From Ralstonia pickettii (GTDB taxonomy: Bacteria > Pseudomonadota > Gammaproteobacteria > Burkholderiales > Burkholderiaceae), in contig NZ_MCGB01000061.1 in assembly GCF_001699815.1 (NCBI RefSeq), positions 124,001 through 188,000 on the forward strand: a DNA stretch of 64,000 nt. The letters are read 5' to 3'. Below, piece after piece: positions 13,254 to 48,309 of this stretch (positions within the stretch are counted from its first letter, which is position 1; each line of letters begins with the position of its first letter). The translations under genes and the position numbers were made by a program. Below the pieces are notes generated by a model. It was not told where the DNA came from. It did not search any database and worked only from the letters and a program-made list of their open reading frames with translations.

Positions 13254-13270
13254 CCGTCATGAGGTGACGG
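13254..13270. terminator. Hairpin at the transposon insertion point, probable oxyR terminator in the empty site
   Basis: CCGTCA-TGAGG-TGACGG is a perfect 6-bp stem. In the reconstructed uninterrupted sequence it lies about 20 bp after the oxyR stop. It would act on leftward oxyR transcription, but the following T-run is short. The transposon duplicated ACGGT inside its proximal arm. Confidence 0.4.
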
Positions 13271-13271
13271 T
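13267..13271. repeat. Left copy of 5-bp target-site duplication (ACGGT)
   Basis: ACGGT directly precedes the TGTC end of the transposon and is repeated exactly at 48305-48309 after the other end. A 5-bp duplication is characteristic of Tn7/Tn5053-type transposition. Confidence 0.9.
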
Positions 13272-13335
13272 TGTCCGCGTAGCGAAGATAATTAGAAAAT
13301 AGCGAAGTAGATTAGAAAATATCGAAGTTTGGATT
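13272..13335. repeat. Left transposon end with three direct 20-bp repeats
   Basis: After the terminal TGTCCGCG come TAGCGAAGATAATTAGAAAA (13280-13299), TAGCGAAGTAGATTAGAAAA (13300-13319) and a degenerate third copy beginning TATCGAAG (13320). They abut without spacers. The same repeat occurs inverted at the right end. They are probable transposase-binding sites. Confidence 0.88.
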
Positions 13336-13598
13336 GGGTGCTACCCAGCGAGAAGCCGCACTACAGAGCCATTCCCCTCACTTTTTCGGCTCTACGAAAT
13401 GATGCGCCGCACCATTTGATGCGCAGCGCATCCGCCCATCACGTCGTCCGACCACAACGTTCGCGGCTGCGAACCAAGTCCAGTACTTCGCCGGATAGCC
13501 TCAGCCTACCTGGTGTTGTATGGTTCAAGAACGTGGTTACACGAGCCGCATCACACCTTTCATACCTCCATGGCTGCCAAAGACACCTGCCGTCACCA

Positions 13599-13732
13599 AT
13601 CGACCCCAGCGGTCGATGTCGGCAGCCGCGCGTTCGCTCCGTCAGAGCGAACTCACTCGCGAATAGCTGACTGACCTCGGGCTTCTTCGGCTCCCGGCGT
13701 TGCCGGGTTCGATGGCTGCGGCTGCAAGCCAT
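13599..13732. other. Cluster of four short perfect inverted repeats upstream of the AAA ATPase gene
   Basis: This non-coding stretch (13336-13755, no credible gene) holds four hairpin candidates in 134 bp. They are ATCGACC/GGTCGAT (13599-13617), GTTCGCTC/GAGCGAAC (13632-13652), CCCGGC/GCCGGG (13693-13707) and ATGGCT/AGCCAT (13712-13732). They lie immediately before the ribosome site of the AAA gene. A structured leader RNA or attenuator is possible, but no known family was recognised. Confidence 0.45.
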
Positions 13733-13755
13733 TGATTCGCGTATGGAGAATCATC

Positions 13756-14976
13756 ATGTCTGCTCCCCGGCAACCTTCGGAGCACCCACCTGGATTTGTT
13801 CCTTTAGGGGATCTGTCCGAGCAGCGTAGTGCGGCGGCATGGCATCTGCTCATCCCCTCGAACACGCACACCGTCCTTGAGGCTGCCCGACAAGCCAAAC
13901 TGGACCTTGCGGTGATAAAAGAAGATGAGCATGAATCCTCATCTGCTGGACCGGCTGTGGCGACGCCGGCAGAAGTGGTTCCCGCTCCTCGCCGTGCTCG
14001 GCCCCGGCATATTCAGGTTTTTGGGCCTGAAGCGCTGGCGCTCGCCAACGAGCACATGCAAGGTGCAGACCGCAGCCAGCGGCGGTGCGCCGAGACATTG
14101 TTGGAGCGAGCCGGGAGCAATGAGGGCTACCGCGCACTACCTCGTGTTCGATCTGCCCTGAAGAAGCTCGAAACGGCGCGGAGCGTGTTCGGCAACCTGA
14201 GTGAGCCGATTGAGAAGCTCAGGATTGATCTCACGTTGAACAGTGCGATGCGGACAAAGGATTTCCGGATTCGGCCGATCCTGCTGACAGGACCACCAGG
14301 CATTGGAAAAACGCACTTTGCGCTGAAGTTGGCAGAGCTTCTGAATGTGCCAATGCGGAAGTGGTCCGCTGGAAGTGCCCAGGCAAGCTTCCAACTGACG
14401 GGCGGCGATAGCGCCTGGCACAGCGCTCGACCTGGGATGGTTATTGAGATGCTCGCCCGTGGCAGCTCGGCGACGCCTGTGCTCATCTTGGACGAAGTGG
14501 ACAAGATTGGTAGCGATGTCCGCTACCCGGTAACTCCTGTACTGCTGGATCTACTTGAGTCCGAGACAGCAAGCACATTCCAAGACATGTTCTTGCATAT
14601 GGCGTTTGACGCCAGTCGGATCATCTACGTCCTGACGGCCAATGATCTCAACGCTGTGCCTTCCCCGCTATTGAGCCGCGTAGAGGTGTTTGACATCCCG
14701 GCACCTGAGCCCGAGCAGCGGTTGCTGCTTGTTTTGGCGGAGGTGCAGCGGCTGCAGCGTGCCACCGGCAAGCGCATTGAGTTGGACGCCAGCGCGGCAG
14801 AAGCCTTGGCAGGACGGAGCGACCTAGATCTGCGCGCAACACATCGTTTGGTCCAGGATGCTTTTGCGACTGCGATGGCATCAGGAAAGCACGTCGCCGC
14901 GCCCAAGATGCCGCGGCGCGCCGGGCGGCAGGCGATCGGCTTCGTGGCAGACCGACAATCTGGTGAGCGGGCCTAG
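13756..14976 (+). CDS. AAA+ ATPase with Lon-like ATPase module, no protease domain
   Basis: 406 residues from ATG 13756, with GGAG 7 nt upstream. About 170 N-terminal residues of unknown fold precede the AAA+ core. Walker A is GPPGIGKT (179-186) and Walker B VLILDE (242-247), followed by a TANDLNAVPSPLLSRVE sensor/arginine-finger segment resembling Lon. The Ser-Lys protease domain of Lon is absent. It is the first cargo gene at the left end, co-directional with a small protein, a metallophosphoesterase and a DruA-like gene. A role in anti-phage defence or remodelling is inference from context. Confidence 0.75.
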   Translation: MSAPRQPSEHPPGFVPLGDLSEQRSAAAWHLLIPSNTHTVLEAARQAKLDLAVIKEDEHESSSAGPAVATPAEVVPAPRRARPRHIQVFGPEALALANEHMQGADRSQRRCAETLLERAGSNEGYRALPRVRSALKKLETARSVFGNLSEPIEKLRIDLTLNSAMRTKDFRIRPILLTGPPGIGKTHFALKLAELLNVPMRKWSAGSAQASFQLTGGDSAWHSARPGMVIEMLARGSSATPVLILDEVDKIGSDVRYPVTPVLLDLLESETASTFQDMFLHMAFDASRIIYVLTANDLNAVPSPLLSRVEVFDIPAPEPEQRLLLVLAEVQRLQRATGKRIELDASAAEALAGRSDLDLRATHRLVQDAFATAMASGKHVAAPKMPRRAGRQAIGFVADRQSGERA

Positions 14977-15079
14977 GGGCAATGAATCACCATGCCCGCG
15001 ACCTACGCTATTGCAATCGCCCTGTGGAGAGACGCGCTGCCGCGAAGGCGTGGACGGAGTAATCTGGGGGGCAGGACAA

Positions 15080-15319
15080 ATGGAGCAAGCCATGCCGGCA
15101 GACAAATTCGGCCGATTCATGACCAGCGATACATTTTTGACGCGCGCGGACGCGGCAGTTGCCGCGGCAGTACGCCGCCTCGAAAAGCAAGGCATCGTAC
15201 CGGCTTACATCCGACGCCAACCAGAGCCGCAGGCAAAATCTGAAGCGGCCCCAAGCGACATCCCTCCTGATGTGAGCCAGGACGTCACGAGTAAGCATGA
15301 ATCTCCTGGTTCTAAGTGA
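15080..15319 (+). CDS. Small hypothetical protein overlapping the metallophosphoesterase gene
   Basis: 79 residues from ATG 15080; an alternative Met lies at 15092. It is Ala- and Pro-rich with no membrane segment. Its 3' end overlaps the start of the metallophosphoesterase by 23 bp in another frame, which suggests translational coupling if both are real. No family was recognised. The upstream part of this open frame is antisense or out-of-frame material and was not included. Confidence 0.45.
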   Translation: MEQAMPADKFGRFMTSDTFLTRADAAVAAAVRRLEKQGIVPAYIRRQPEPQAKSEAAPSDIPPDVSQDVTSKHESPGSK

Positions 15320-16073
15320 CCTGCACCTCGAATTCACTACCCTCGACATCGACACGACGGGCGCTGATGTCATCGTGCTTGCTGGTGACATTCATATAGG
15401 CAAGCGAGGAATGCCTTGGATTGAAGCCCAGAGTCGTGGCCTGCCGGTCATCTATGTGCCTGGCAACCACGAGTTCTACAAAGGCGAGCACAGCAGAGTG
15501 CTGCGAGATCTGCGGGCGGCATGCGCGGCAACGTCGAACGTTCATCTCCTCGACATGGATAGATTCGTGATCGGGGACGTAGAGTTCCTAGGTGCCACGC
15601 TCTGGACAGACTTCGCTTTGTACGGGGGTACAGAAGAAAACGTGCGTACCGCCGAAGGCTACGCTGGTCGAGGCATGTCCGACTTCACCGGGGCCATTCG
15701 TTTTGAATCGCACGGGGTGTTCAGAAAGTTGCAACCGCGGGATACGACACGGATGCACCACGTCGCGCGCGACTGGCTCCGCACGGAACTAATGTCCCCT
15801 TCACAGCACAGGCGGGTGGTCGTTACCCATCACGCCCCTTCGGCCAAGAGTGTCTCGTCGCGCTATCAAGATGATCCGCTGACGTCTGCATATGCCAGCC
15901 GCATGGATGATGTGGTCCAACTGGCCGATCTATGGATTCATGGCCATATGCACGACAGCTTCGACTACAGCGTCGGCGCATGTCGCGTTATATGCAATCC
16001 ACGGGGATATGCACCGAAAGGACACCCAGCGGAAAATCAGGCCTTCAGTACTGGATTAGTGCTTGAGATATAG
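15297..16073 (+). CDS. Calcineurin-like metallophosphoesterase
   Basis: 258 residues. All five metal-binding blocks are visible: SDLHLE at the N-terminus, AGDIH, PGNHEFY, THHAP and GHMHDS. This defines a dinuclear-metal phosphoesterase of the calcineurin superfamily, about the minimal catalytic size. The substrate is unknown; such enzymes act on nucleotides, cyclic nucleotides or DNA ends. It sits between an AAA ATPase and a DruA-like gene on the same strand. A nuclease or nucleotide-signal-degrading role in defence is therefore inferred, not shown. Confidence 0.88.
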   Translation: MNLLVLSDLHLEFTTLDIDTTGADVIVLAGDIHIGKRGMPWIEAQSRGLPVIYVPGNHEFYKGEHSRVLRDLRAACAATSNVHLLDMDRFVIGDVEFLGATLWTDFALYGGTEENVRTAEGYAGRGMSDFTGAIRFESHGVFRKLQPRDTTRMHHVARDWLRTELMSPSQHRRVVVTHHAPSAKSVSSRYQDDPLTSAYASRMDDVVQLADLWIHGHMHDSFDYSVGACRVICNPRGYAPKGHPAENQAFSTGLVLEI

Positions 16074-16244: not shown

Positions 16245-17456
16245 ATGACCAGTAACGTGCGCCGAACTCCGTCCAATCTCATTGAAGGGGCATTCCATGC
16301 CCCTTCAGGCGCAGTCATATGGCTTGAATCTAGGAAACAACAGCTTGCCGCAGATATTGTTTCAGCCCACGCCGCCTGCACCAACGCTCTGACGTTCGGC
16401 AACAAGGACTTTGTCCGAGGATTGCATGTTGCTGCCCGCGGGCTTGGGGAGCGAATTGGATACAGTGGCAAGCTTGCGGCATTGTTCGAGCGCCACCGTC
16501 ACTGGTTCAAAAACGGCCAGAACATCGATGTTCATGCAATAAAGCCCGCGCTCCGACTGGTGCAAACGACAGAGGAAGAGCAGCTGTGGACGTTGGCTCG
16601 TGCGTGCTGGTCCATGCCGTACTCGAAAGGATACGGCCGCAGGTTACGCTTCCTTGTAGTGGACGAAACCCATGGCGGCCTGATTGGTATCCTGGGACTG
16701 CAATCCCCTCCGGCAGACCTTGCCTGCCGAGACACACTATTCGAGTTTCCCGCTGGTCGGAAACTCGAGCTGGTCAACCAAACGATGGACGCCTACACCA
16801 TCGGCGCGATCCCGCCTTATAGCTTCCTGCTAGGAGGCAAGCTTTGCGCGGGACTACTCGCAGCGGACGCAATCCGGGAGGCGTACTGGCTAAGATACGC
16901 GGCGAAGCGCACGACAATGCAACGCCAACAAATCCAGCAGCCGCTCGTAGCGATTACAACGACCAGCGCGTTTGGCAAGAGCGCGCAGTACAACCGCCTG
17001 CGATACGATAGCCGTCTGCTGGCGGAGCCGATTGGTTACACGAAGGGATTCGGGATGCTCCATTTGGAGCATCTCTACGATCGCATGTGCGATTTGCTGG
17101 TAGCCCATGGACAGCTGACACCCAACGGATATGGAAACGGCCCCAAGGTTCGCTGGCAAAACGTTACCAAAGCGCTGATGTTGCTTGGGTTACCGCTGGA
17201 CCTACTTGCACATGGCGTGCAACGTGAAGTCTATCTATTCAACCTAGTCAGCGACCTCCACTCTGGCATGGCAGGCGGTTCTTTCGGAGCCCCCCAAAGA
17301 CTATCTGTGGATGAGTACTCGGATTACTGGAAGCAACGATGGGCAGTACCTCGATCCCACCGCTACCCAGATTGGCGCGAAGTCGATGCACAAAATCTAG
17401 TGCGCGAGAAGGTCCAAGAATGGGACCTTCTCACAGCGCAAAAAAAACAGCGCTAA
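16245..17456 (+). CDS. DUF4338 (Druantia DruA-like) protein
   Basis: 403 residues. The central region matches the DUF4338 pattern as I know it: SKGYGRRLRFLVVDETHGGLIGILGL, then NQTMDAYTIGAIPPYSFLLGGKL, then TTTSAFGKSAQYNRLRY. DruA is the DUF4338 subunit of the Druantia anti-phage system, whose large helicase DruE is absent here. Stand-alone DUF4338 genes are common and their activity is unclear. It is 171 bp from the metallophosphoesterase and overlaps the convergent 405-residue gene by 4 bp. Confidence 0.8.
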   Translation: MTSNVRRTPSNLIEGAFHAPSGAVIWLESRKQQLAADIVSAHAACTNALTFGNKDFVRGLHVAARGLGERIGYSGKLAALFERHRHWFKNGQNIDVHAIKPALRLVQTTEEEQLWTLARACWSMPYSKGYGRRLRFLVVDETHGGLIGILGLQSPPADLACRDTLFEFPAGRKLELVNQTMDAYTIGAIPPYSFLLGGKLCAGLLAADAIREAYWLRYAAKRTTMQRQQIQQPLVAITTTSAFGKSAQYNRLRYDSRLLAEPIGYTKGFGMLHLEHLYDRMCDLLVAHGQLTPNGYGNGPKVRWQNVTKALMLLGLPLDLLAHGVQREVYLFNLVSDLHSGMAGGSFGAPQRLSVDEYSDYWKQRWAVPRSHRYPDWREVDAQNLVREKVQEWDLLTAQKKQR

Positions 17457-18670
17457 CAACTTGGACGTCTTTCACGTGACGTCTCAATTTTCGTTTCCAA
17501 TTCCAGCTCGCCGATCTGTTGAAGTCGGCCAAGAACCCCTGCCAAGTCTTCGAAGTGCAATCGCCACAGCGTCCCAACGCCACTGGAGTACTTGCCAGCG
17601 TTGAACTGCTTTGGGCGCGCCCGCAGAACTGTGACCTCGTTACGCACCTGCAGCGCAAGTGCGACGCCAACCGCCTGCAGTTTCGATCCCATGTGAATGA
17701 GCCAGACGTTCGATCCCGCGCTTTGATCAATCTGGCTGACCAGAGTGCCCAATGTCTGGCGATAGTCTCGCGTACTGCAAGTATGGTGGTTGCGCTCACA
17801 TAGTGACGGAGCGGTCGTATCAGAAGGCTCCTTACCTACCATTACTGCCAGCTGACGATTTACGATTCGACGCTGCAGATCCAATCGCCACCTCATGGAA
17901 GACGCGGGTGGCTCACCAAGGATCCAGAAGATGGATGACACTGGCGACACAAGTGGCTGATCGCTGATGTGAGCAAGGCAGCGCACCAACCGAGATGTGC
18001 GTAACGAGGGCAGCGCGATAACTCGATCAGGGCGATTCTCTGCGTTCAAACCAGGATACAGCTCGTTGACGTCCACATCGGAGACACCTTGCTCGGCAAA
18101 CGAGCTGTCGTCACCATCCGACAAGGCTTCTTGGACCAACTCCTCGAGCCTCGATTCATATTCGAAGCGCGGAGGAGCATATTCCTCTGGCTCTGCGTAG
18201 ACGATGTCGAGTACGAGTCGCGGTGCCTGTGGAATGAGCGTTGCAAGAACGGACAGGATCAACGTACTTGATGCGCCGCTAATATCGAAAGCGACGCGAA
18301 CTTTCTGTCGGCTTTGCCGAAGCTCCTGCAGCGCAGCTTGCACGGCGCATTGCACCTCATGCGGACTTTCGGCGCTGAAGGTGCGAATTTCGGAACAAAA
18401 ACGCGACAGAGCCCCGCGGATGGCATCCCCATTACCCTCGTTGTCCTGAGTATTGATGTCGTAGCAACCTAGCAAGGCAATAGCCGCCCCACCCTGAGGT
18501 AAGCGCTCAGCGAACAATTGGGGGATAGCGGAAGCTCGATCCTCAAAACCAAGGGCACTAATTAGCAGATCGGGAGAAACCTCATCTCCATCCCACGGTT
18601 CAACTTCGGGAAGAGACACCTGTACATCGTCAAAGCAAATTCGTTTGACGAAAGCCTGCTTGTCAGTCAT
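17453..18670 (-). CDS. Unrecognised partner of the kinase-ATPase protein
   Basis: 405 residues from ATG 18670, which overlaps the upstream kinase-ATPase stop by 8 bp (ATGACTGA). The two genes are therefore very likely co-translated. Longer upstream starts would lie inside that gene. The N-terminal half has Rossmann-like beta-alpha alternation (LLISALGFEDRASA, VRVAFDISGASSTLILSVL, LDIVYAEPEEYAPP). No catalytic motif was recognised. Such proteins next to ORC/CDC6-like ATPases look like sensors or effectors of conflict systems; that is inference. Confidence 0.7.
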   Translation of the reverse strand: MTDKQAFVKRICFDDVQVSLPEVEPWDGDEVSPDLLISALGFEDRASAIPQLFAERLPQGGAAIALLGCYDINTQDNEGNGDAIRGALSRFCSEIRTFSAESPHEVQCAVQAALQELRQSRQKVRVAFDISGASSTLILSVLATLIPQAPRLVLDIVYAEPEEYAPPRFEYESRLEELVQEALSDGDDSSFAEQGVSDVDVNELYPGLNAENRPDRVIALPSLRTSRLVRCLAHISDQPLVSPVSSIFWILGEPPASSMRWRLDLQRRIVNRQLAVMVGKEPSDTTAPSLCERNHHTCSTRDYRQTLGTLVSQIDQSAGSNVWLIHMGSKLQAVGVALALQVRNEVTVLRARPKQFNAGKYSSGVGTLWRLHFEDLAGVLGRLQQIGELELETKIETSRERRPSC

Positions 18671-21371
18671 CTGTATCCTCGAACAATTCCCCACTGAACC
18701 GATCCGCGCCGCTCTTGGTGGCATACGACATCCTTGCTCGATCCGCAAAACGCTCCGGAGCCGTCAGGAATGTTTGCAGCTCCTCAATGTCGCGCACCCC
18801 TAGATAACTATCACGCTTGAGCGAAAGTCCGAATGCTGGATTGAATATTCGCCGCAACTCCCAACGCATAGTTTGCTTTGAAAGCCCCTCCTTGGCGCGA
18901 CTGTCTTGTAGCTCAATAAAGATCGCTCGCCGGAGAAGCTCGCGCGCGAGAGATCCTAGCTCTGGGTCAAGATCACGTAACAAGGCAATCGTCGATCTCG
19001 GTTCATCCTTGGTCATCTCCAGACGGTAAAGTCGATACGGCTCCTTCGCAGAGTTCAGTCGCCCCTTAACCATCACGTCACGGACGGCCGCTCCGTACTG
19101 TCCAAGAATCTTGGCCATTAGCGCTCCGAATGGATGCAAACCATCCACGCGCTCCTTGAACGCCTTTGAGATAGAAACGATCGCCTCGTGTTGAGCAGCC
19201 TTGGTAATGGGTGCCGTGGTATCGCGCTGCACGCTTCCCTTGACGAACATCTCACGAACGATCTGTAAAACCGTGGCGGTATCGCCACTCCATAGCCGCC
19301 CAAGAGCGTGCAACCCATGATAGTAGTAGCGACGCCCCTGAGTACTGCCATGCTCGCGAATATAGCTGGCAAGCTGAACATCATCAGCATATGGTTCCGA
19401 AGATCCAATAAGCTTCTCTGCCCGCCCCGCCCAACCAGCTCTGCTCAGCCGTCGATCAATCAGGTTCGTCACAAACCGTTTCGCAGCATGATCATCGACG
19501 TCCGCCAAAGCTCGGCTACCTGCGTCGATAGTGGTGAACTCGCGCGTCTCCTCTAGTGTGACCCCATCGATATCGCCCGGATCAAAACCGAACTTCTCGC
19601 AGGAAATCTTGAAGTAGTGAGTTGGAACGCGCTCAAAAATTATCTTATTAAGTATTCGTTGAATTTCTTCCTGCACTCGGTTTGACGAGTAGTCATCCAA
19701 CAGGAATACCACTTGATGCCTCTTGAAGTAAGGGAAGACAGATCCCAACTTTCCAGTTAGATCAGCAAGGAACGTATCCGGAAGATGATCGTTCCATTCG
19801 CCATCTCGAAGCAAAGTTCCATGGAGCTGAACCCGTAAGGCATCAAGGTCATCTGCGAAATGAAGGATGCGACTGCGATTGGTCAGTCTTGCCGATTCAA
19901 CGGGACGACTGAAGTACGACGAGATAAGTGCAACGATATTATCGAAACCAGCTTCATCTAGTCGAAAAGCGCGGTTCGCCACTGAATCGGCATAGGCCAT
20001 ACCAAGAGATTTTAGAAGCTCACGAGCAACTATCAATTGGAAGTAAGTTGCAATCTCATGCGCCCTCTGCTCAGCGCGCCCCTCCTTGCGAGCCAACCAG
20101 CTAAGGTTGTTTTGAAGATGTGCAGCGCAACTGATATATACCCCAAAAGAGTCAAAAGGGCTTGCACGTCCGCGTTCCGCATTCTGAGCACGTAAGCCCA
20201 AATGTGTTCTTACTGCAAGATAGCGGAATATCATTGACTTACCGCACCCGCGTGGACCAGTGAGCACGATAGGTTTACGCTCCTGGATGTCCTGCATCCA
20301 CGGCAATGTTTCAACGAAAAGCTCCAGCAGCGTCGCGTCGTCGGCTAAATGCTCGGCCGAAATGGCCTCAAACGGCTGGAACTTTGACTCATCAATCTCC
20401 ACCTCTTCGAGTTCACGCTGAAGAACTTGCAACTCCTGGGCAATTTGGTTCTCAATCGGAAAATGCCTCGCCTGGTCCTCATCCACCAACTTTTCGATGA
20501 ACTGCAGGAACCGGCGCATGAAGTGAGGGTGACTGGAGGCGACACGACGGTTCCGATGTAGACCGTTGTAAAGCTCCACCAATATCTGAACAAAACAGAT
20601 TTTGTCGTCTCGGCTCTTGCTTGTAGTCTGATTGGATGGTTTTAGACTACCCAAATCGATAATTGATACTTCCAATCGATGCTCGTCATCAGCGAGCAGA
20701 GCCAATTCCGCTGGCACCTGAGAAATCATGACGTTGCCCACGTGCAGATCGTCATGTTTCAACTCAACCCGCTTGAGGTAGGTGATAGCTCGAAGCACCT
20801 GCATTGCTACACTGCAGACAAAATCGATCTCGAGCGAGTCCTCTTGGAGATACTGCTCCAAGGTCCTCCCCGTAACCCAGGGGGCTATAAAGCAAACAAA
20901 GTCTTCTTCGGCATCCGGCATACCCGGCGGCGGCGCAGAAAGGCCGACTGACATCGGGCAAACAAAGAGCGATTTAGCTGGACGAAGTTTGGATGTATAC
21001 AGCAGCTCTTGCTCGAGCCGTGGCTGCTTGTAGTCGCCGGGGACTGCAAGCTTGGCAGCAAACTCCTCATGGGTCGCCGGGTCGCGAACCCTCAAGACGA
21101 ACCCCTTCCACCCGCGGCGTTTGTGCAAACCGTGCACACGCCCCTCCGCATCTCGATCCAGAACTTCATAGGTATGCGTTGACTGGCCATCGAGTGCTCG
21201 TACCGTCAACGTGGCAGGAATAATGGGAGCGCCATCTATCCAGTTGCGCTGTGCCTCACTAAGTGCGTCCATTGTTTTGTTGCCTATGATCTGCGCTACG
21301 TCGACCATCGCCGAAGTTGCAATCGCCATCCCCACTACCGTACGGCCGGCACACGTAGGCCTGACCTGCAC
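18663..21371 (-). CDS. Fusion of eukaryote-like protein kinase and ORC/CDC6-like P-loop ATPase
   Basis: 902 residues from GTG 21371; ATG starts at 21329, 21308 and 21272 are possible. The N-terminal domain is a protein kinase with candidate ATP Lys107, catalytic loop HDDLHVGN (Asp208, Asn213) and DLG (Asp239) in place of DFG. All key residues are present, so an active kinase is expected. The second domain has Walker A GPRGCGKS (372-379) and Walker B VVFLLDD (554-560). The C-terminal ~300 residues resemble those of bacterial ORC/CDC6-family conflict ATPases. It heads a two-gene operon with the 405-residue protein. An anti-phage signalling role is inferred. Confidence 0.75.
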   Translation of the reverse strand: MQVRPTCAGRTVVGMAIATSAMVDVAQIIGNKTMDALSEAQRNWIDGAPIIPATLTVRALDGQSTHTYEVLDRDAEGRVHGLHKRRGWKGFVLRVRDPATHEEFAAKLAVPGDYKQPRLEQELLYTSKLRPAKSLFVCPMSVGLSAPPPGMPDAEEDFVCFIAPWVTGRTLEQYLQEDSLEIDFVCSVAMQVLRAITYLKRVELKHDDLHVGNVMISQVPAELALLADDEHRLEVSIIDLGSLKPSNQTTSKSRDDKICFVQILVELYNGLHRNRRVASSHPHFMRRFLQFIEKLVDEDQARHFPIENQIAQELQVLQRELEEVEIDESKFQPFEAISAEHLADDATLLELFVETLPWMQDIQERKPIVLTGPRGCGKSMIFRYLAVRTHLGLRAQNAERGRASPFDSFGVYISCAAHLQNNLSWLARKEGRAEQRAHEIATYFQLIVARELLKSLGMAYADSVANRAFRLDEAGFDNIVALISSYFSRPVESARLTNRSRILHFADDLDALRVQLHGTLLRDGEWNDHLPDTFLADLTGKLGSVFPYFKRHQVVFLLDDYSSNRVQEEIQRILNKIIFERVPTHYFKISCEKFGFDPGDIDGVTLEETREFTTIDAGSRALADVDDHAAKRFVTNLIDRRLSRAGWAGRAEKLIGSSEPYADDVQLASYIREHGSTQGRRYYYHGLHALGRLWSGDTATVLQIVREMFVKGSVQRDTTAPITKAAQHEAIVSISKAFKERVDGLHPFGALMAKILGQYGAAVRDVMVKGRLNSAKEPYRLYRLEMTKDEPRSTIALLRDLDPELGSLARELLRRAIFIELQDSRAKEGLSKQTMRWELRRIFNPAFGLSLKRDSYLGVRDIEELQTFLTAPERFADRARMSYATKSGADRFSGELFEDTDD

Positions 21372-21714: not shown

Positions 21715-22068
21715 ATGAATACGTTGTTCGCAAAAACCTTTGGTGGCCTCTCTCGTGCTTACTACTTCCGCCATTTCCTGTTTGGCGTGATTTTTCCCGC
21801 GTTCATATTCCTCTTCGCGAGCAACGCCGGAAAACCGCTCCCCTACCAGATGGTTCTGTTCGCCCTCATCAGCACCGTGCTCTATCCATATGCCCGGTTC
21901 GTGTACGAAGGCGTGATGAACTTCATTCTCGGCAACAACGTCTTCTTCGTGAACGCAATCGTGATGCTGTTCGCCAAGTTCAGCACGATGCTGATCTGTT
22001 GGGCTTTCGCGATCTTCATTGCGCCGATCGGACTGGTGTATCTGTACCTCCGTCATAGCCGGGCGTAA
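21715..22068 (+). CDS. Small integral membrane protein of unknown function
   Basis: 117 residues with three to four hydrophobic segments: around residues 20-35, 45-58, 68-88 and 92-112. Aromatic residues are plentiful (AYYFRHFLFG). No family was recognised. It lies between the kinase-ATPase operon and the TnsE-like gene, on the same strand as the latter. It may be the membrane effector or immunity component of a defence cargo, or transposon baggage. The ribosome site is weak. Confidence 0.55.
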   Translation: MNTLFAKTFGGLSRAYYFRHFLFGVIFPAFIFLFASNAGKPLPYQMVLFALISTVLYPYARFVYEGVMNFILGNNVFFVNAIVMLFAKFSTMLICWAFAIFIAPIGLVYLYLRHSRA

Positions 22069-34314: not shown

Positions 34315-34920
34315 ATGAAGCCAGCCAACCCCAAGATCCTCTGCATTGAAGACGACGTTGAAACCGCCGAGTTGATCACCGAAGAACTGGCCGAACACGG
34401 CTACACCGTGATCACGGCGAACGATGGTGAGTCCGGGCTGGCGATGCTCCTGCGCGAAGCCCCCGATCTGGTGCTGTGCGACGTAGGCATGCCGGGCATG
34501 ACCGGGTTCGAGTTGCTGGAGCAATTGCGCACGCTCGCGCCACGTTATGCTGAAATTCCGTTCGTCTTTTTGACGGCGATGGCGCAACGCGACTCTGAAC
34601 TGCGTGGGCGTCGCCTGGGTGCTGATGACTATGTGACCAAACCGGTCGACTTCGAAATCCTGATGAGCATTGTGCAGACCCGGCTCGCCAGACGGCCGCG
34701 CACGCATACCGCACATCCGCCCGTACAACTGAGCGAGCGTGAGGTCGAGGTGCTAGCATGGTCTGCGCGCGGCAAGACATCGGGTGAGATCGCCACGATT
34801 CTTGGGCTCTCCAAGCGCACGGTCGATTTCCATATGGACAATGCGCGCGAAAAGCTGGGCGTCGCCACGCGCATCGAAGCCGTGGTCAGGGCTTCCAGCT
34901 CGGGCATTATCAAACCATAG
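34315..34920 (+). CDS. NarL/LuxR-type response regulator
   Basis: 201 residues from ATG 34315; upstream starts at 34243 or 34273 are possible but add unconserved sequence. The receiver domain has the acidic pair (EDD, 12-14), phospho-acceptor Asp56 (LCDVGMPG) and Lys in DDYVTKPV. The C-terminus is a LuxR-type HTH (LSEREVEVLAWSARGKTSGE ... VDFHMDNAREKL). It pairs with the divergent histidine kinase. Metal pumps of this type are more often controlled by OmpR-type regulators. Confidence 0.88.
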   Translation: MKPANPKILCIEDDVETAELITEELAEHGYTVITANDGESGLAMLLREAPDLVLCDVGMPGMTGFELLEQLRTLAPRYAEIPFVFLTAMAQRDSELRGRRLGADDYVTKPVDFEILMSIVQTRLARRPRTHTAHPPVQLSEREVEVLAWSARGKTSGEIATILGLSKRTVDFHMDNAREKLGVATRIEAVVRASSSGIIKP

Positions 34921-38114: not shown

Positions 38115-38126
38115 GGTGAACTCCCC

Positions 38127-39484: not shown

Positions 39485-41002
39485 ATGCCCGCCAACACTG
39501 CCCACGGCATGCCATCGTCCGCCACTGTTCTTCTGCGCCTGACCATCGTGGCGGCGGCATGCCTGTTGACCGCCGCCTGCGCGGTCGGACCGGATTTCAA
39601 GACTCCGGATGCTCCGAAAGTGACTGGCTATACGCCCAAGCCGCTGCCGCAGCAGACATCGGCTGCAGCCACGCAGGGCGGCGAAGCACAGCGCTTTGTC
39701 TCGGGGATGCCAGTTTCCGATCAATGGTGGAAGGCGTTCCAGTCAGAAAAGCTGAACAAGACGATTGCCGATGCGATTTCCGCCAGCCCCACGCTGGCCG
39801 CCGCCCAGGCTGCACTGCGCGTGGCGCAGCAGCAAACGCGCGCGCAACAAGGAGCGTTCTTCCCAATGCTGCAAGGCTCGTATCAACCGAGCCGACAGCA
39901 AAACGCCGTCGGCACGATTTCGCCCACGCTCACCTCTGGCGCACCGATCTACACCCTGCACACCGCGCAGCTCACGGTGAGCTATGCCCCAGACGTCTTC
40001 GGCCTGAACCGCCGGCAGGTGGAATCACTGAAGGCCACCGAAGAGGCACAGTACTTCCAGATGGAGGCGGCTCACCTCACCCTTGCGTCCAACATCGTGG
40101 TGGCGGCAGTGCAGGAAGCCTCGCTGCGCGCGCAGATTGAAGCGCAACAACGCATTGTCGGCATCAATACGCAGTTGCTCGACAACCTGCACAAGCAGTT
40201 CGCGCTGGGCGCGGTAACGGGGCTGGATATTGCAGCTGCCGAAACGGCGCTTGCGCAGGCCGAGCAGGCGCTACCCAACCTGCAAAAGCAACTGGCGGTT
40301 CAGCGCGATCTGTTGGCTGCACTGGCCGGCAAGCTGCCTAGCGAAGGCATCGCCGAGACGTTCACCTTTGCAGACTTCACGCTGCCGCAGGACTTGCCCG
40401 TGTCGCTGCCATCGGATCTCGTCCGGCAGCGCCCTGACGTGCGCGCAGCCGAAGAACAGCTGCACGCCGCAACAGCGCAGGTGGGCGTGGCGATCGCCAA
40501 TATGCTGCCCCAACTGACGATCACCGGCACCAAGGGCGGCACCGCAGAAATCTTCAGCCAGATGTTCCGGGACGGCAACGTCTTCTGGAGCCTGGTCGGC
40601 AATGTGGCGCAGACCTTCTTCGATGGTGGTGCGATGCTGGCGAAAAAACGGGCAGCCGATGCGGGGGTCGATCAAGCGGAGGCGCAGTACCGTGGCACCG
40701 TCATCACTGCATTCCAGAACGTCGCCGATACCCTGCACGCGCTAGATGCCGATGCCGACGTGCTGAAAGCCGCGCTCAGATCCGAACAGGCAGCACACCG
40801 AACTCTAAACATCACGGATAGGCAGCGCGCGATCGGCCAGGTCAACATCCTCGCTGTGCTGAATGCAGAACAGGCCTACCAGACTGCTGTGCAAGCCACG
40901 ATTGGGGCGCGTGCAAACCGATTCGCCGATACGGCAGCGCTGTTTCAAGCCCTAGGTGGCGGGTGGTGGAACCGGCCCAACGCTGACGTCGCACGGCGCT
41001 AA
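39485..41002 (+). CDS. Outer-membrane factor lipoprotein, NodT/CusC family
   Basis: 505 residues. A lipobox-like LLTAAC places the lipidated Cys at residue 32, followed by AVGPDFKTPDAP, the usual OMF lipoprotein start. Two OEP repeats of coiled-coil/barrel type (TLAAAQAALRVAQQQTRAQQ and NRFADTAALFQALGGGWW) are visible. It forms the outer-membrane channel of the tripartite pump. It is divergent from the adaptor gene. Confidence 0.9.
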   Translation: MPANTAHGMPSSATVLLRLTIVAAACLLTAACAVGPDFKTPDAPKVTGYTPKPLPQQTSAAATQGGEAQRFVSGMPVSDQWWKAFQSEKLNKTIADAISASPTLAAAQAALRVAQQQTRAQQGAFFPMLQGSYQPSRQQNAVGTISPTLTSGAPIYTLHTAQLTVSYAPDVFGLNRRQVESLKATEEAQYFQMEAAHLTLASNIVVAAVQEASLRAQIEAQQRIVGINTQLLDNLHKQFALGAVTGLDIAAAETALAQAEQALPNLQKQLAVQRDLLAALAGKLPSEGIAETFTFADFTLPQDLPVSLPSDLVRQRPDVRAAEEQLHAATAQVGVAIANMLPQLTITGTKGGTAEIFSQMFRDGNVFWSLVGNVAQTFFDGGAMLAKKRAADAGVDQAEAQYRGTVITAFQNVADTLHALDADADVLKAALRSEQAAHRTLNITDRQRAIGQVNILAVLNAEQAYQTAVQATIGARANRFADTAALFQALGGGWWNRPNADVARR

Positions 41003-42552: not shown

Positions 42553-42583
42553 GGCAAGATGTATGTAGGCTGTTGGCCTAGCC

Positions 42584-44227
42584 TCATCCCGTCACCAGCC
42601 CAGCGATCCGCACCAGCACCAGTCCAGCGGCCACCACGAGATAAGCCCGCAGCACAAACATCCACGTGCGCTTGAGCGGTGTCCAACGTGCTGGCGTGAG
42701 CTGCTCCAGCGGCGGCATGGTCCAGTGGTCGCGATCGAGCACGCTCACGCGCAGTGGATGCTGGGGTCGATGACTGCGCCGCTCGATGTGCCACAACACC
42801 AGCGACATGACAATGGCGATGAGCGAACCGCCGATCAGGATCGCGCCGATCTCGAATTCGCCGATGCCGGGAAACAGCACCGCCGCCGTCAGGATGACGG
42901 AGAGCATCACCAGCACCGCCACCACACCGCCGGTGAAGATGTTCATCGCGCGGCCGTTCGTCCAGGGGCCCAGCACAGCCTTGTCATTGCACAACAGCAG
43001 CAGGAACACCGTCGCGCTCGGCAGCAGCACGCCGGCCAGTGATTGCACCGCGTTGGTCAACAGCCCGAGCGGCACACCCGGCGTCAGCACCAACCCTGCG
43101 GCCAGCAGCGTCAGCCCGAAGTAAATCGCATAGAAACCCTTGGCCTCCGTCGGCTTGCGATGCAGCGAATGCCGTACAGCGAACACATCGCCGATAGCAT
43201 AGGCCGTGGACAGCGACACCGCGCATGCGCCGATGATGCTGGCGTCCAACAGCGCGATCGCAAACAGCACACCGGCCCAGCGGCCCGAGTGCGCTTCCAA
43301 CCCTTTCGCCGTGCCCAGTGCATCGGTGTAGTTGCCAAACTCTGGCGTACCGTGGAAGGCCTGCGCGCTGAAGGCGATCATCGCCACGGCACCGGCAATC
43401 ACGAGCACGATGCCCAGCCACAGGTCCGCTCGCTCATAGCGGATGAAGCGCGCGGTGATCCGCTTGTCGATCACGTAGCTCTGCTGGAAGAACAACTGCC
43501 ACGGCGCCACCGTCGTCCCCACGATGGCGATGATCAGCAGCATTACCTCCGCCAGCGGTGCACCGGCCGGTAGAGCAGGCACGAAGAAGTCGCGCGCCAC
43601 CTGCCCCATCGGCGGGTGCACCATCACAAAGATGGGAATAAGCGTGAGGCTGCCCGCCACCAGCAGCAGCGCAAAGCGCTCGAAGCGGCGGAAGTCGCCC
43701 GTGGAGGCGGCCAGCATCACCAGCGCGGCCGCTGCACACACGCCCCAATGACGCGGGATGCCGAGATACTCCAGCGCCAGGCTGATGCCGATGAATTCCG
43801 TCACCAAGGTCAGCGCGTTCACCAGAAACAGGTCGATGACGGAGAAGCTGCCCCAGAACTTGCCGAAGCGCGCAAAGATCAGCCGCGCATGGCCGACGCG
43901 CGTGACGGCGCCCAGGCGCAGCACCATCTCCTGGTTCACGTACAGCACAGGGATCAGCAGCAGCAACGTCCAGAGCAGCGTGGTGCCGTAGTTCTGCCCG
44001 GCCTGCGTGTAGGTGCCGAAGGCGCCGGCATCGTTGTCGCCGACCATCACGATCAGGCCGGGCCCGAGGATGGCGAGCAATGTACGCAAGCGCGCACGCC
44101 AGCTATCACGCGCGCCGGTGTCATGGTGGGCGATGGTGCCGAGCGCCCCACGGATGTCGCCCACATGGGCGTCGTCGAGAGCGGCATGACGTGGTGGTGT
44201 GTCGATGCCCGAAGTCAGTTGGGTCAT
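42584..44227 (-). CDS. Divergent Nramp-family divalent metal transporter
   Basis: 547 residues from ATG 44227. It has about 11 predicted helices and overall Nramp topology. The helix 1 metal motif (DPGN in MntH) is replaced by GDNDAG (63-68), and the helix 6 MPHN-type motif by TTVAPWQLFFQQ. That places it in an atypical Nramp clade whose substrate is uncertain (Mn, Mg or other). It has an extended cytoplasmic C-terminus. A 68-residue small ORF with a strong ribosome site lies 43 bp upstream on the same strand. Confidence 0.82.
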   Translation of the reverse strand: MTQLTSGIDTPPRHAALDDAHVGDIRGALGTIAHHDTGARDSWRARLRTLLAILGPGLIVMVGDNDAGAFGTYTQAGQNYGTTLLWTLLLLIPVLYVNQEMVLRLGAVTRVGHARLIFARFGKFWGSFSVIDLFLVNALTLVTEFIGISLALEYLGIPRHWGVCAAAALVMLAASTGDFRRFERFALLLVAGSLTLIPIFVMVHPPMGQVARDFFVPALPAGAPLAEVMLLIIAIVGTTVAPWQLFFQQSYVIDKRITARFIRYERADLWLGIVLVIAGAVAMIAFSAQAFHGTPEFGNYTDALGTAKGLEAHSGRWAGVLFAIALLDASIIGACAVSLSTAYAIGDVFAVRHSLHRKPTEAKGFYAIYFGLTLLAAGLVLTPGVPLGLLTNAVQSLAGVLLPSATVFLLLLCNDKAVLGPWTNGRAMNIFTGGVVAVLVMLSVILTAAVLFPGIGEFEIGAILIGGSLIAIVMSLVLWHIERRSHRPQHPLRVSVLDRDHWTMPPLEQLTPARWTPLKRTWMFVLRAYLVVAAGLVLVRIAGLVTG

Positions 44228-44270
44228 AGCGACCTCCGATTTGTTATTGGGTGATTGGATGACCCACCGG

Positions 44271-44477
44271 TTACCAATAGGTGCGCGACAGCCGGACGGC
44301 AGCGGCAGCGTAGCCGTGGTTGGAGAGCGGCTGCCCACCGTCGTCAGCACGCCGGTTGGAGGTGGCGGGCACGGCGTTGGCACGCTCGGGCGCACCGGCC
44401 CGGGCCTGCACGAACGGCGAGCTGAACGGCAGCGCGATTGCCGAGAAACGACGGGCGGGGATGTTGAATTTGCGCAT
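44271..44477 (-). CDS. Small protein upstream of the Nramp gene, possible leader
   Basis: 68 residues from ATG 44477, with GAGGAG 5 nt upstream, an excellent ribosome site. The sequence is basic and Pro/Ala/Ser-rich (MRKFNIPARRFSAIALPFSS ...) with no clear membrane helix and ends in RLSRTYW. It ends 43 bp before the Nramp start, so it is probably co-transcribed. It may be a leader or an accessory small protein; no family recognised. The preceding 44502-44713 could hold a structured 5' leader. Confidence 0.5.
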   Translation of the reverse strand: MRKFNIPARRFSAIALPFSSPFVQARAGAPERANAVPATSNRRADDGGQPLSNHGYAAAAVRLSRTYW

Positions 44478-44713
44478 AGGTACTCCTCGCCACATGCGCA
44501 CGACGGGTGCATGGCATGCGGCAATCGCCGCACAGGGGTCGTCTTACCCTGGCGGCAGATTCAAACAATCAAGGAGCGATGCAGACACCGCTGCCTTGCC
44601 TGGGCGGCAAGTCAGCAGCAGGGAAAACCGTGCGGCGGACTGGCCTAGTGGGAAACTGATGTGGTTGTCGGATAAGGTCGACTCGGACTGTCCATATGGG
44701 TCCTCCGTAGGCG

Positions 44714-46162
44714 TTAGAACTCCGCGTGGGCACGAATGCCAAAGAACTTGGCAGGCCCGCGGTCCCGGTTGTAACCGGGGTTCTGGATCAACTGAAAATC
44801 GGGGCTGAGCGTGATGCCCTTGACCGGTTGAAAGCTGTAGAACACTTCGAGTATGCGCTCGTGGCCATAGTTCAGTGCGCCGTCACCCAGGAAGGCGCCG
44901 CTGCCGCCCGCCGCCAGATAGGCACGATGATCCGGGCCCAGCATGTTGAGCGAAAAGGCCGCCCCCAACACATCATTCGGCCGCCCCCAGGACGTGCCCT
45001 TGAGCAGACCGCCGAACGACACGTTGCGGCCCACCTCGGTAAAAGCATAGGTCTCGGTCTTGTCATCCGACCAGTTCAGGCGGGTGAACAGGCCCAGGTT
45101 TTCGCCCACTTTCTGCTCGAACGACAGGCCGACGCCCACCTTGGCGTGCTCGCGCCGCACCTGGCTCAGGTCTGGCGCGGCACCGGTGGCCTGCCCGAGC
45201 GCAATCGCATCATCAAAGCGGCCCATGCGCGCGAAGTTGCGCCAGCCCAGCAAGCGCACCTTGCCCTCCTGGCCGAACAGCGTGTAGCGCTTTTCAAGCT
45301 CCAGCATGTCGCCGTAGTGCTTCAGAAAACGCGTGTCGAGCGGCAAGCCGTTGGACTCAAGCGGTTGCAGGAATCGGCCCGCGCGGACGGCCCAGCCCAG
45401 CTCGCTGTCGATGTACTCCAGCGCAACGCCCCAGCTGTAGCCGCGCGCATCGGCCGCATAGTCGAACGACGGGTGCGTCATGAACGACCAGTTCAGGAAC
45501 TGCGTGCGCGGGTCGTGCGCGTACTCCACGGCATCAAAGACATCGAGCACCGGCAGATTGCCCGCGGTCAGCACCACGCGACGCTTGTCGACCACGTCAG
45601 CGAACTGGTTGAAGTCGGCGTCGACCTTTTCTGTGTCACCGCCCAGGCCCCAGGTCTGACGCATGAAAACGCGGGCGCGGTACAGCGTCGGGTCAGTGCC
45701 CGTGACCTTGGCCAACTCGCCGTTGGTGGGGCCACCCAGGCCATGCAGATCGGAGAACGCCTTGCCCATCACCACTTCCGGGTTGAAGTGGAATTCCGCG
45801 CCCTTCCACAGCCGCATGCCCAGGTCCAGCGTCGTGCTGAAGGAATAACTCGTGGCGCGGCCCGCCGTCAGGCTGTTGTCGCCGCTGTACGGCGACTTGA
45901 AGGCGGGCTTGGCTTGCCAGACCCACGTCGATTGGCCATGGAAGCCGAAGCGGTCGCCCAACTCACCACCGGCAGGCAGCGCATCTGCAGCCGGAGCAGA
46001 AGCCGGAGCTTCTTGCGCTTGGGCAGCATGCGTGAAAGCAGAGAACAAAGCCATCGCAGCCAGCAAGGCCGGACGACGGAGGGGACGCAGAGCAGCAGCG
46101 CGCACCAGAACGAGCGGACGCACTGCAACCCAAGCGTACTGCAGCATCGAGAAAAACAGCAT
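44714..46162 (-). CDS. Carbohydrate-selective porin, OprB family
   Basis: 482 residues from ATG 46162, with GGGAGG a few bases upstream; longer starts upstream look spurious. A long signal peptide ends near AAQAQEAPAS. The body has OprB/porin-type beta-strand repeats (FGFHGQSTWVWQAKPAFKSPYSG, VGVGLSFEQKVGENLGLF) and ends in Phe (RAHAEF), the outer-membrane insertion signal. In this context, next to Nramp, metal passage across the outer membrane is as plausible as sugar uptake. Confidence 0.82.
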   Translation of the reverse strand: MLFFSMLQYAWVAVRPLVLVRAAALRPLRRPALLAAMALFSAFTHAAQAQEAPASAPAADALPAGGELGDRFGFHGQSTWVWQAKPAFKSPYSGDNSLTAGRATSYSFSTTLDLGMRLWKGAEFHFNPEVVMGKAFSDLHGLGGPTNGELAKVTGTDPTLYRARVFMRQTWGLGGDTEKVDADFNQFADVVDKRRVVLTAGNLPVLDVFDAVEYAHDPRTQFLNWSFMTHPSFDYAADARGYSWGVALEYIDSELGWAVRAGRFLQPLESNGLPLDTRFLKHYGDMLELEKRYTLFGQEGKVRLLGWRNFARMGRFDDAIALGQATGAAPDLSQVRREHAKVGVGLSFEQKVGENLGLFTRLNWSDDKTETYAFTEVGRNVSFGGLLKGTSWGRPNDVLGAAFSLNMLGPDHRAYLAAGGSGAFLGDGALNYGHERILEVFYSFQPVKGITLSPDFQLIQNPGYNRDRGPAKFFGIRAHAEF

Positions 46163-46789
46163 GAGACCTCCCTCGTCTGCTTCTATGACAGACGTAGGCA
46201 TGGGCCGACCACGAGCCTCCCAGGAACCACGCACGCAAACGCGTACGCGGCCACATGGCCGTGTCGATAAAACGATCGAATGATGGGAGAGGCTTGTGCG
46301 GAGAACCCGCTCAAGATCCACTACCCGCCGTGCAATGCGGCTAGGCAGTGGTGAAGCGCAGCGATGCGCCCAAACTGTCTAGCCGTTCAACGTGCGACCC
46401 AAGGTCGACTAGAACAACTGTCCATGGAGATCACTCCGAGTTCTGACGGGGCGAAGGGTAACAAAGTCATACGTAAGCCTGCAAGCAGTTTTTCCGTTGG
46501 CTTTGAGCAACGCGTCGCAGCCGTCAAACAACGTGGAATGCCGGCCATGGAACGGGAGAACGCTGAACGCCAAGAGGGAAGAGAATCAAGTGGCGAATAG
46601 GAGCGCCTACAAAAAAGGGAATGCGGCGGAATTGGGCAAGTGTCTGCGCACCTCAAATTTCGGCGGGCCCTCTGGACAGACTACATAGGTAGCTGAGCTA
46701 AGCCGGACCTGACGGATCGATTCAAGCCGACTATCTCGCACACGGGATCTATCGCAGCGAGTGAGCGACATTGAGGCGTCTTTGTACTT
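46163..46789. other. Intergenic stretch without a recognised gene
   Basis: 627 bp between the divergent porin and exchanger genes. Open frames (for example 46364-46600) lack credible ribosome sites or family resemblance. The porin promoter should lie in its left part. Nothing else was recognised. Confidence 0.4.
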
Positions 46790-46818
46790 TTGCGTGCCAG
46801 GGGGGATGCTGATACACT
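46790..46818 (+). promoter_or_regulatory. Sigma-70-type promoter for the riboswitch-exchanger transcript
   Basis: TTGCGT at 46790-46795 and TACACT at 46813-46818 are separated by exactly 17 bp. Transcription would begin about 46825, just before the conserved start of the riboswitch. Confidence 0.6.
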
Positions 46819-46827
46819 CCGGCCCGT

Positions 46828-46957
46828 TGTCATTGGGGAGTAGCCATTCCGGGCGCAATGCTCGGAAGTCCACGTCAACAAACTTGAGACCTTGCCGTCT
46901 CATGGTGTGGACAGCCTCTGCTGCAAGCAGAGCCGCTAGGCGAGACCTTTGGCCGCG
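46828..46957 (+). ncRNA. yybP-ykoY manganese riboswitch
   Basis: The conserved GGGGAGTAGCC block (about 46835-46845) and the distal GCGAGACCTTTGGCC block (about 46940-46954) match those of the E. coli alx/mntP yybP-ykoY elements. The spacing and an intervening variable hairpin region also fit. Such RNAs bind Mn2+ (some also respond to pH) and increase expression of downstream exporters. It ends a few bases before the exchanger frame, so control at translation start or by early termination is likely. Confidence 0.88.
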
Positions 46958-46959
46958 AC

Positions 46960-48042
46960 GTGCACACCCAGGCCGGGCGACGCGCGTCGTTGCGCCATTG
47001 GTTTATCTCGTTCGCCTGGCTACCTCATTTCATGCTCCTCACAATCGGTCTTTTCCTGATATCGGCAGGCGCCATCTATTTGGCCTGCGAGTACTTCGTC
47101 AACGGCATTGAATGGTGCGGCAAGCGACTGAATCTCGGCGCCACAGCCGTCGGCTCGGTGTTGGCCGCCTTTGGCACAGCACTGCCTGAAAGTGCCGTCA
47201 CGTTCGTTGCCGTGGTCTTCGGTTCGACGCCTGAGCAGAAAGATCTCGGCGTCGGTGCTGCGATGGGCGGCCCGCTTGTTCTGGCCACACTCGCATATGC
47301 GGTAGTTGGTTTGGCGTTGATGATGAATCGACGCGAGCTTGGCCGTCCCACCGCGGAAGTCAAAGTCGACCATGCACGCATGAGCCGGGACCAGGCCGCT
47401 TTCCTGGGCGCCTTTGTTGTCAAGGTTGCCCTGGGGCTTGTTGCCTTTGCATACAAGCCTTGGCTGGGCATTCTTTTCCTGGTCGCCTATGCGATCTATG
47501 TCTGGCGCGAGATCAAGGACAGTGACACGGCACCTGAAGAAGAGGAACTGGAGCCCCTCTCGATTCGCCCGAAGTTGGCGGAACCTCCACTGGGGTGGGC
47601 CGTGCTGCAAGTGCTGCTCGCGCTGGTCGTGATTGGCGGCGCTTCACACGTCTTTGTGGCACAGCTTGAAGCGATTGGCACAGCGCTGCACTGGCCAGCA
47701 CACCTTGTCGCGCTATTGCTCAGCCCCGTTGCGACGGAGTTGCCCGAGACGATGAACGCTCTGATTTGGGTCCGCCGGGGCAAGGAACGCCTCGCCCTGG
47801 CAAACATCTCGGGGGCCATGATGATTCAGGCCACCATCCCGAGTGCACTGGGGATCTTCTACACTCCATGGCGATTTGACGGGCCGCTGCTTGCGTCCGG
47901 CATCATTACTGCGGTCGCCATCTTGTTCTTGTGGATGATGTTCCGGCGCGGAGTCGTGCATGGGCGAACCCTGGTAGCAGTCAGCTCTTTGTACGCGCTT
48001 TTTGCGTTTGTTCTCGCGATCGGGTTTCCAGTGACCCGCTAA
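46960..48042 (+). CDS. CaCA-family sodium/calcium exchanger-like transporter, probable Mn2+/Ca2+ exporter
   Basis: 360 residues from GTG 46960, or 336 from ATG 47032; the start is uncertain because the riboswitch lies immediately upstream. About ten helices in two inverted repeats carry the alpha-repeat motifs FGTALPES (71-78) and ATELPET in the second half. CaCA exchangers move Ca2+ or related cations against Na+ or H+. The preceding Mn2+ riboswitch argues that Mn2+ is exported. It is the last gene before the right end of the transposon. Confidence 0.88.
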   Translation: MHTQAGRRASLRHWFISFAWLPHFMLLTIGLFLISAGAIYLACEYFVNGIEWCGKRLNLGATAVGSVLAAFGTALPESAVTFVAVVFGSTPEQKDLGVGAAMGGPLVLATLAYAVVGLALMMNRRELGRPTAEVKVDHARMSRDQAAFLGAFVVKVALGLVAFAYKPWLGILFLVAYAIYVWREIKDSDTAPEEEELEPLSIRPKLAEPPLGWAVLQVLLALVVIGGASHVFVAQLEAIGTALHWPAHLVALLLSPVATELPETMNALIWVRRGKERLALANISGAMMIQATIPSALGIFYTPWRFDGPLLASGIITAVAILFLWMMFRRGVVHGRTLVAVSSLYALFAFVLAIGFPVTR

Positions 48043-48211
48043 CAGGACGCCTTGCATGGGTTCATACTGCCGACACTCAGCCGGGCATCTGAGGCGGTCG
48101 GCGATGGACATCCGGTGGCAAGACGACAATGCTTGACTCTCGCACCGCACTGGTTGCATGGCTGGGCAGGCTGGCGCCCCGGGGACGGGACACTCGCGCG
48201 CGCCTCTTTCA

Positions 48212-48304
48212 TGCTCCAGCCTACTTCGCTATTTTTTCTAACTTACTTCGCTATTCTCGCCAGTCAGGTCGGCGCTTTTTCTAATTTTCTTCGCTATGCC
48301 GACA
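48212..48304. repeat. Right transposon end with three inverted 20-bp repeats
   Basis: TTTTCTAATTTTCTTCGCTA (48277-48296) and TTTTCTAACTTACTTCGCTA (48234-48253) are reverse complements of the left-end repeat. A third degenerate copy ends at 48231. The first two are separated by 23 bp, whereas the left copies abut, an asymmetry typical of Tn7-like elements. The terminus is CCGACA, inverse of TGTCGG. Confidence 0.88.
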
Positions 48305-48309
48305 ACGGT
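48305..48309. repeat. Right copy of 5-bp target-site duplication (ACGGT)
   Basis: Identical to 13267-13271. It directly abuts the ACA end of the transposon, 19 bp from the oxyR stop codon. Confidence 0.9.

Follow-up and report, generated by a model that had tools for sequence, protein, structure and literature searches.

A Tn7-like transposon beside oxyR in Ralstonia, with a remote TnsE-like protein and a probable second copy on a megaplasmid

The locus described here raises the question of what kind of transposon lies beside oxyR in Ralstonia pickettii and what brings it there. We analyzed 64,000 nucleotides of contig NZ_MCGB01000061.1 (assembly GCF_001699815.1, positions 124,001 to 188,000), called the window below and numbered from its first letter, in which an initial annotation had described a 35-kb transposon. 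It is very probable, judging from sequence comparisons, that this is a Tn7-like cut-and-paste transposon in which a TniQ protein would provide homing to a site at oxyR and a TnsE-type protein a route to plasmids.

The element, its ends and its transposition genes

The transposon occupies positions 13272-48304 (35,033 bp) between two copies of ACGGT (13267-13271 and 48305-48309), and its TGTC and GACA termini match in inverted orientation at 25 of 28 bases. The duplication, the size and the match between the ends are exactly as the initial annotation gave them. When the whole window was scanned for inverted pairs of 28-mers (10-base exact seed, at least 22 matches, 2-60 kb apart), 59 pairs were found; the termini of the element had the top score and were the only pair with a 5-bp duplication among the best 15 of the 59. 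The 20-bp end repeat, allowing up to three mismatches to its consensus, matched four times in the window (0.00 expected). At the left end (13272-13328, plus strand), the copies at 13280-13299 and 13300-13319, presumed TnsB sites, directly abut; at the right end (48212-48304, minus strand), those at 48234-48253 and 48277-48296 are 43 bp apart, so the described contrast between abutting and spaced repeats holds. Three repeats had been counted at each end; two good copies at each end stand and the third is degenerate in both cases, with five mismatches to the consensus at the right (48212-48231) and, at the left, a presumed half-site whose likeness to the consensus is limited to roughly the first 9 bases (13320-13328), where no match appeared even with up to six mismatches allowed. 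The abutting left repeats recur in two other genomes discussed below (G003 and G013; G, C and L denote our genomes, contigs and loci). With up to two mismatches, the repeat pattern matched in 7 of 16 Ralstonia genomes, and the reversed control pattern in none. The GC content is 59% in the element and 63-64% in its flanks.

The transposition genes sit mid-element on the minus strand in the order tnsA-tnsB-tnsC-tniQ. The tnsA gene (27689-28357) encodes an endonuclease with PF08722 and PF08721, and tnsB (25764-27686) a transposase with PF09299 and matches to TnsB structures, in which D248, D333 and E369 are among the columns invariant in the five relatives compared. They are followed by tnsC (24866-25771), encoding a TniB-type AAA+ regulator (PF05621, E 5e-63), and by tniQ (23808-24869), encoding a presumed target selector of 353 amino acids (aa) for the oxyR site (PF06527, E 1.6e-26). 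Convergent with tniQ, and overlapping it by 33 bp, is a plus-strand gene for a 560-aa protein (22158-23840; 85% in G003). A DDE-type TnsB, a TnsC and a TniQ-domain protein together, plus TnsA, between TGT and ACA ends with several repeats and a 5-bp duplication, identify what appears to be a complete, intact-looking Tn7-like transposon. The suggestion of an intact and probably recent insertion is thereby supported.

By its predicted fold, which matches the C-terminal DNA-binding domain of TnsE, the 560-aa protein appears to be a remote TnsE; a search of Pfam returned only a US22 match (E 0.19). Of 80 TnsB loci, 21 had a similar gene close to the tns genes within the stretches examined (some of them short), and in 20 of these 21 it lay on the opposite strand. 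A search of the order gave 17 other places; of the seven examined, four had tns or tniQ genes (one in G351, two in G535 and, once the stretch was extended, one in G664) and three had none. The transposition genes had no close DNA copy in a plasmid collection, where each of the nine matching records had 60-80% identity and covered no more than 9% of the query. A simple repeat scan for left ends at 34 relative loci gave four matches, one of them plausible (L113), and none of 89 pattern matches in viral contigs was a relative.

The site beside oxyR and the copies in strain SSH4

The right end of the element lies 24 bp from the stop codon of oxyR (48329-49285, minus strand). An OxyR model was the best match to this gene (E 8.4e-78; 261.7 bits, below its cut-off of 329), which also has LysR domains. 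The left flank carries katG (TIGR00198, above its cut-off) and a dps-like gene with a ferritin-like domain (NF006975, 76.8 bits, below its cut-off of 114), together at 9772-12566 on the minus strand. We surveyed occupancy of the site by joining the two flanks of the window as a query, which matched all 16 Ralstonia genomes. The junction was empty in nine (G001, G002, G005, G007, G008, G010, G011, G014 and G015), with extra or diverged DNA further left in G002 and G014. G008, the closest of the empty-site genomes, has a single ACGGT at the junction, which is the outcome the initial annotation had anticipated for an empty site. Empty sites with the expected junction occur in nine genomes of the 16, and across the genus this gene content is not a constant feature of the locus. 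The insertion described earlier is real; what had been overlooked is that the target beside oxyR is a recurrent one.

Complete ends with a duplication were found at oxyR in four genomes: that of the window (ACGGT), R. pickettii SSH4 (G006; GACGG, read from contig ends), G003 and G013. The last two carry diverged sister elements of 27,009 bp and 21,557 bp, respectively, on the same site, each with a GACGG duplication; in G013, the tnsB, tnsC and TnsE-like genes look incomplete. G009 (4.3 kb) and G012 (16 kb) hold remnants in which the right end of the element family, degenerate in G009, points toward oxyR and the left end has decayed. The locus is rearranged in G004. Four complete and two remnant occupants among 16 genomes, agreeing in all five readable orientations (that of SSH4 is not readable), amount to the recurrent insertion at one chromosomal site that is expected of a Tn7-like element. 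A TniQ search of 299 genomes of the family (E up to 1e-60) gave four matches, exactly the genomes with complete ends at oxyR.

Strain SSH4 was isolated from the surface of the Mars Odyssey orbiter during its assembly and is reported to have a megaplasmid of more than 230 kb (PMC4155597). Its contig C35 (NZ_JFZG01000035.1) consists of nothing but the element (35,033 bp; one difference, at window position 46544), and a contig that coincides with a single transposon suggests that the strain has at least two copies. We compared contig ends (37 of 38 contigs, 7 masked and C38 left out; 58 usable ends) and found three pairs sharing a 5-mer in the right sense: C2/C26, C31/C34 and C5/C31. We rejected C5/C31 (TGCGT) as chance, the C5 end resembling a terminator palindrome also present at C6. 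The C2/C26 pair is the oxyR site, beside which the element is apparently inserted. Its flanks there are 88-90% identical to those of the window and its duplication is shifted by 1 bp, which makes the two insertions independent events. The element thus passed recently from one Ralstonia species to another, by horizontal transfer.

Joining C34 to C31 with one TGCGT gives one open frame, and the join matches contig C4 of G012, a replicon of 341,809 bp, at 8519-9018 over 500 of 500 bases, uninterrupted there. The SSH4 stretches that match this replicon (parts of C34 and C31 and all of C32) are 99.97-100% identical to it, and their segment order is the same save for one segment of about 1.1 kb; positions 1-20000 of C34 had no match in the portions of C4 compared. 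SSH4 and G012 are classed as different species, and the shared megaplasmid stretches (L296, L300, L302, L305, L336) point to recent plasmid exchange. The G012 replicon encodes VirB4, TrbL/VirB6, a TraG-type coupling protein and a TraI_2 relaxase. Together, C34, C31, C32 and the element come to about 276 kb; the joined site had no match in the plasmid collection. SSH4 thus probably carries two copies, one at the oxyR homing site and the other, at the unrelated target TGCGT, on a megaplasmid that is probably conjugative.

Target selection and relation to known transposons

These two placements are what TniQ and TnsE pathways would predict. In the mechanism that we propose, TnsA and TnsB would cut the element at its end repeats, and TnsC would connect the transposase to the target selector. 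The 353-aa TniQ would read the site and direct the element to one chromosomal position, 19-25 bp past the stop codon of oxyR, with its right end, the one on the tnsA side, facing oxyR as in Tn7 at glmS. The divergent TnsE, a probable second selector, would send the element to replicating or transferring plasmids, which would then move it between species; we infer that the 560-aa protein acts in this way and caused the plasmid insertion, and likewise which bases are recognized.

Several observations weigh against this reading. The distance from the element to the oxyR stop codon is not constant (24 bp in the window, 25 in SSH4, 24 in G003 and 19 in G013). On the other side, a 37-bp intergenic box (window positions 13215-13251) between oxyR and the dps-like gene is identical in 4 of 4 occupied genomes and lies 18-21 bp from the element, so the side that is read is ambiguous. 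Ends of the family also occur away from the usual site: G004 (L047 10062-12120, contig C87) has a pair of left ends in parallel orientation, separated by 2 kb, of which the first lies some 70 bp upstream of the start of oxyR; G014 has two end-like sequences facing across 5 bp (ACGGA) 12 kb from oxyR (L330, about 7220-7330, contig C28); and a right-end-like remnant is present on a second large replicon of G012 (L331 near 8260, contig C2). The homology of the 560-aa protein to TnsE lacks sequence support, as its profile matched nothing in the PDB up to E 10, and neither of two Foldseek searches gave a fold match to E 0.001. A TrwC-type relaxase matched C38 of SSH4 and C1 of G012, not this plasmid. 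The SSH4 element is a separate contig, with both placements taken from contig ends and its orientation unreadable, and one such megaplasmid insertion is too little to prove a TnsE pathway. Finally, the three contig-end pairs that share a 5-mer compare with about 1.6 expected by chance among the 58 ends, so the megaplasmid insertion rests on the G012 match.

That near-chance level, taken alone, would also fit a mixed culture of filled and empty oxyR sites, from which the exact 35,033-bp contig could have arisen without a second insertion; assembly breaks at these bases could have come from either. We consider this improbable, as G012 has the C34/C31 join without interruption, identical over 500 bases and flanked on either side by long matching stretches. 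A general hot spot for insertion (a hairpin, or intergenic DNA that is accessible), in place of a site chosen by TniQ, is quite improbable. The duplication does coincide with the right arm of an inverted repeat (CCGTCA...TGACGG) in three of the four occupied and four of the nine empty sites, but the repeat is imperfect in the others, including that of SSH4. Moreover, the ends seen at the junction are those of this element family and, where they can be read, point the same way (although that of G009 is degenerate and the left ends in G012 and G009 have decayed), and the TniQ clade coincides with complete occupancy. That a Tn6022-type element, directed to comM with the help of TnsF, landed at oxyR by chance and was inherited there is highly improbable. 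The gene set is the same save TnsF, with TnsE on the opposite strand as in the portion of PMC10293859 that describes Tn6022. Against it, the 33-bp overlap leaves no room for a gene between tniQ and the TnsE-like gene, where TnsF would follow tniQ in the Tn6022 group, and the site was struck independently at least twice, given the 1-bp-shifted duplication, an element with one difference and host flanks differing by 10-12%.

Within the TniQ-homing reading, we also considered what is recognized. Of the 16 genomes, 14 have the 37-bp box with 0-1 mismatches; in G014 it has six, and G004 lacks it. The box is perhaps an OxyR-controlled promoter. A tentative and rather unlikely extension is that the short TniQ alone would read this non-coding box and not the coding end of the gene. 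If the box is such a promoter, the element would home to a peroxide-response control region with manganese and Co/Ni genes and leave via the divergent TnsE on conjugative megaplasmids.

The initial annotation could not place the repeats among Tn7, Tn5053 or Tn402. The element is indeed none of these itself; what went unnoticed was its Tn7-like machinery of TnsA, TnsB, TnsC, TniQ and a remote TnsE. It shares with the TniB-type ATPase and TniQ elements Tn5053/Tn402 those two proteins, but it has TnsA, and no resolvase matched among the proteins scanned. The Tn5053/Tn402 family has a resolvase and no TnsA. Type I-F3 CRISPR-associated transposons (Tn6677) have related TnsB and TniQ proteins; CRISPR-guided targeting was rejected here, as no CRISPR-like array was found and no cas effector matched among the proteins scanned. 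CARF-named models do match one cargo protein. TnsB is about 37% identical to copies on Acinetobacter plasmids, which were not identified as Tn6022, although Acinetobacter is known for Tn6022-type elements. Unlike Tn6022, the element is inserted between genes beside oxyR and not in comM, and no TnsF was found, nor any recombinase family among its proteins scanned, although a TnsF too remote to match might be encoded elsewhere in it. Its TnsE-like gene does lie on the opposite strand as in Tn6022, an assignment made by predicted fold. With Tn7, described in part in PMC11406308, it shares TnsA, TnsB, TnsC, a TniQ-domain selector and a putative TnsE, TGT/ACA ends, a 5-bp duplication, insertion just past a conserved gene and, in the mechanism proposed, chromosome and plasmid pathways. 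It differs from Tn7 in that the target is oxyR and not the glmS site of TnsD-directed insertion, the short TniQ stands in place of TnsD, TnsC is of the TniB type, TnsE is on the opposite strand, and the transposition genes are mid-element.

Cargo genes and significance

Defence-type genes, likely directed at phages, and metal genes are both present, in agreement with the earlier description of the cargo. Beside the left end is a plus-strand AAA+ ATPase gene with a Lon-like module (13732-14976; PF00004, partial lon match over residues 176-324), which adjoins the left end also in G003 (75%) and G004 (72%). We rejected it as a core transposition component: the family is unspecific, matched in 382 of 399 genomes of the order at E up to 1e-20, and of five closer homologues examined, four had no tns gene nearby and one (G514) had a TnsE-like gene only. 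A calcineurin-like phosphoesterase follows (15297-16073, plus strand; PF00149; PADLOC candidate PDC-S10, E 1.5e-08). The slot to the left of the tns genes holds DruA of the Druantia family (16245-17456, plus strand; PF14236, E 3.4e-62), with no other Druantia genes seen. Two overlapping minus-strand genes (17453-21371) encode a CARF-like protein (17453-18748; PADLOC CARF6 models, best E 4.4e-12, no Pfam family over its cut-off) and a protein with a kinase-like region and an ORC-CDC6-like ATPase (18663-21371; PF24389, E 8.5e-42; PADLOC CARF_STK_AAA, E 1.6e-34; Pkinase below its cut-off). The pair looks like a split form of the CARF_STK_AAA protein of PADLOC, in an element without CRISPR-Cas, and is a possible ligand-sensing defence pair. 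The corresponding slot of G003 is filled by other genes, two of them clear matches to the candidate system PDC-M30. A 117-aa hypothetical protein (21715-22068, plus strand) is conserved in that sister element (79%).

To the right of tnsA are metal-handling genes, a two-component pair and a porin gene. On the plus strand are a DmeR-like metal-sensing repressor (28691-28969; PF02583), the Co/Ni efflux transporter DmeF (28977-30281; NF033827, 497 bits, cut-off 250), a second cation-diffusion facilitator (31710-32633; PF01545, E 2e-47), a response regulator with LuxR-type output (34243-34920; PF00072, PF00196) and an outer-membrane efflux protein (39485-41002; PF02321, E 7.9e-39). The minus strand carries a sensor histidine kinase (32630-34237; PF02518, PF00512, PF00672), a CusA/CzcA-type heavy-metal RND pump with its adaptor (34950-39347; TIGR00914, 883.9 bits, cut-off 701.45; TIGR01730, 141.6 bits, cut-off 94.9), an NRAMP-family metal transporter (42584-44533; PF01566, E 2.3e-82; NF037982, 55.2 bits, cut-off 50) and an OprB-family porin (44714-46321; PF04966). 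Adjoining the right end and oxyR are a manganese riboswitch (yybP-ykoY; 46823-46933, plus strand; RF00080, 61.7 bits, gathering threshold 45) and, behind it, a gene for a Na/Ca-exchanger family transporter (46960-48042, plus strand; PF01699), an arrangement that suggests a manganese exporter. The G009 remnant retains DmeR, DmeF and the exchanger at 94-97%.

Sites named for Tn7-like elements in the portion of PMC11406308 that treats them are glmS, yhiN, comM, parE, tRNA genes, guaC, yciA, ffs and rsmJ, and TnsE is described there as almost universal among glmS- and comM-targeting elements. An account of a Tn7-type metal island in Burkholderia has no mention of oxyR in its relevant part (PMC10702557), nor does the portion of the main text of PMC8649781 that bears on this mention Ralstonia or LysR. 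In the open-licence literature searched, we found no Tn7-like element assigned to oxyR. Beside the few sites so named, oxyR would be an added chromosomal attachment site, and a remote TnsE is here paired with a site other than glmS or comM, with no TnsF found. The small TniQ, without a known partner, makes DNA recognition by such proteins directly testable. If the reading is true, the same element at a homing site and on a megaplasmid in one strain, and near-identical in another species, would illustrate in nature the two-pathway life of Tn7.

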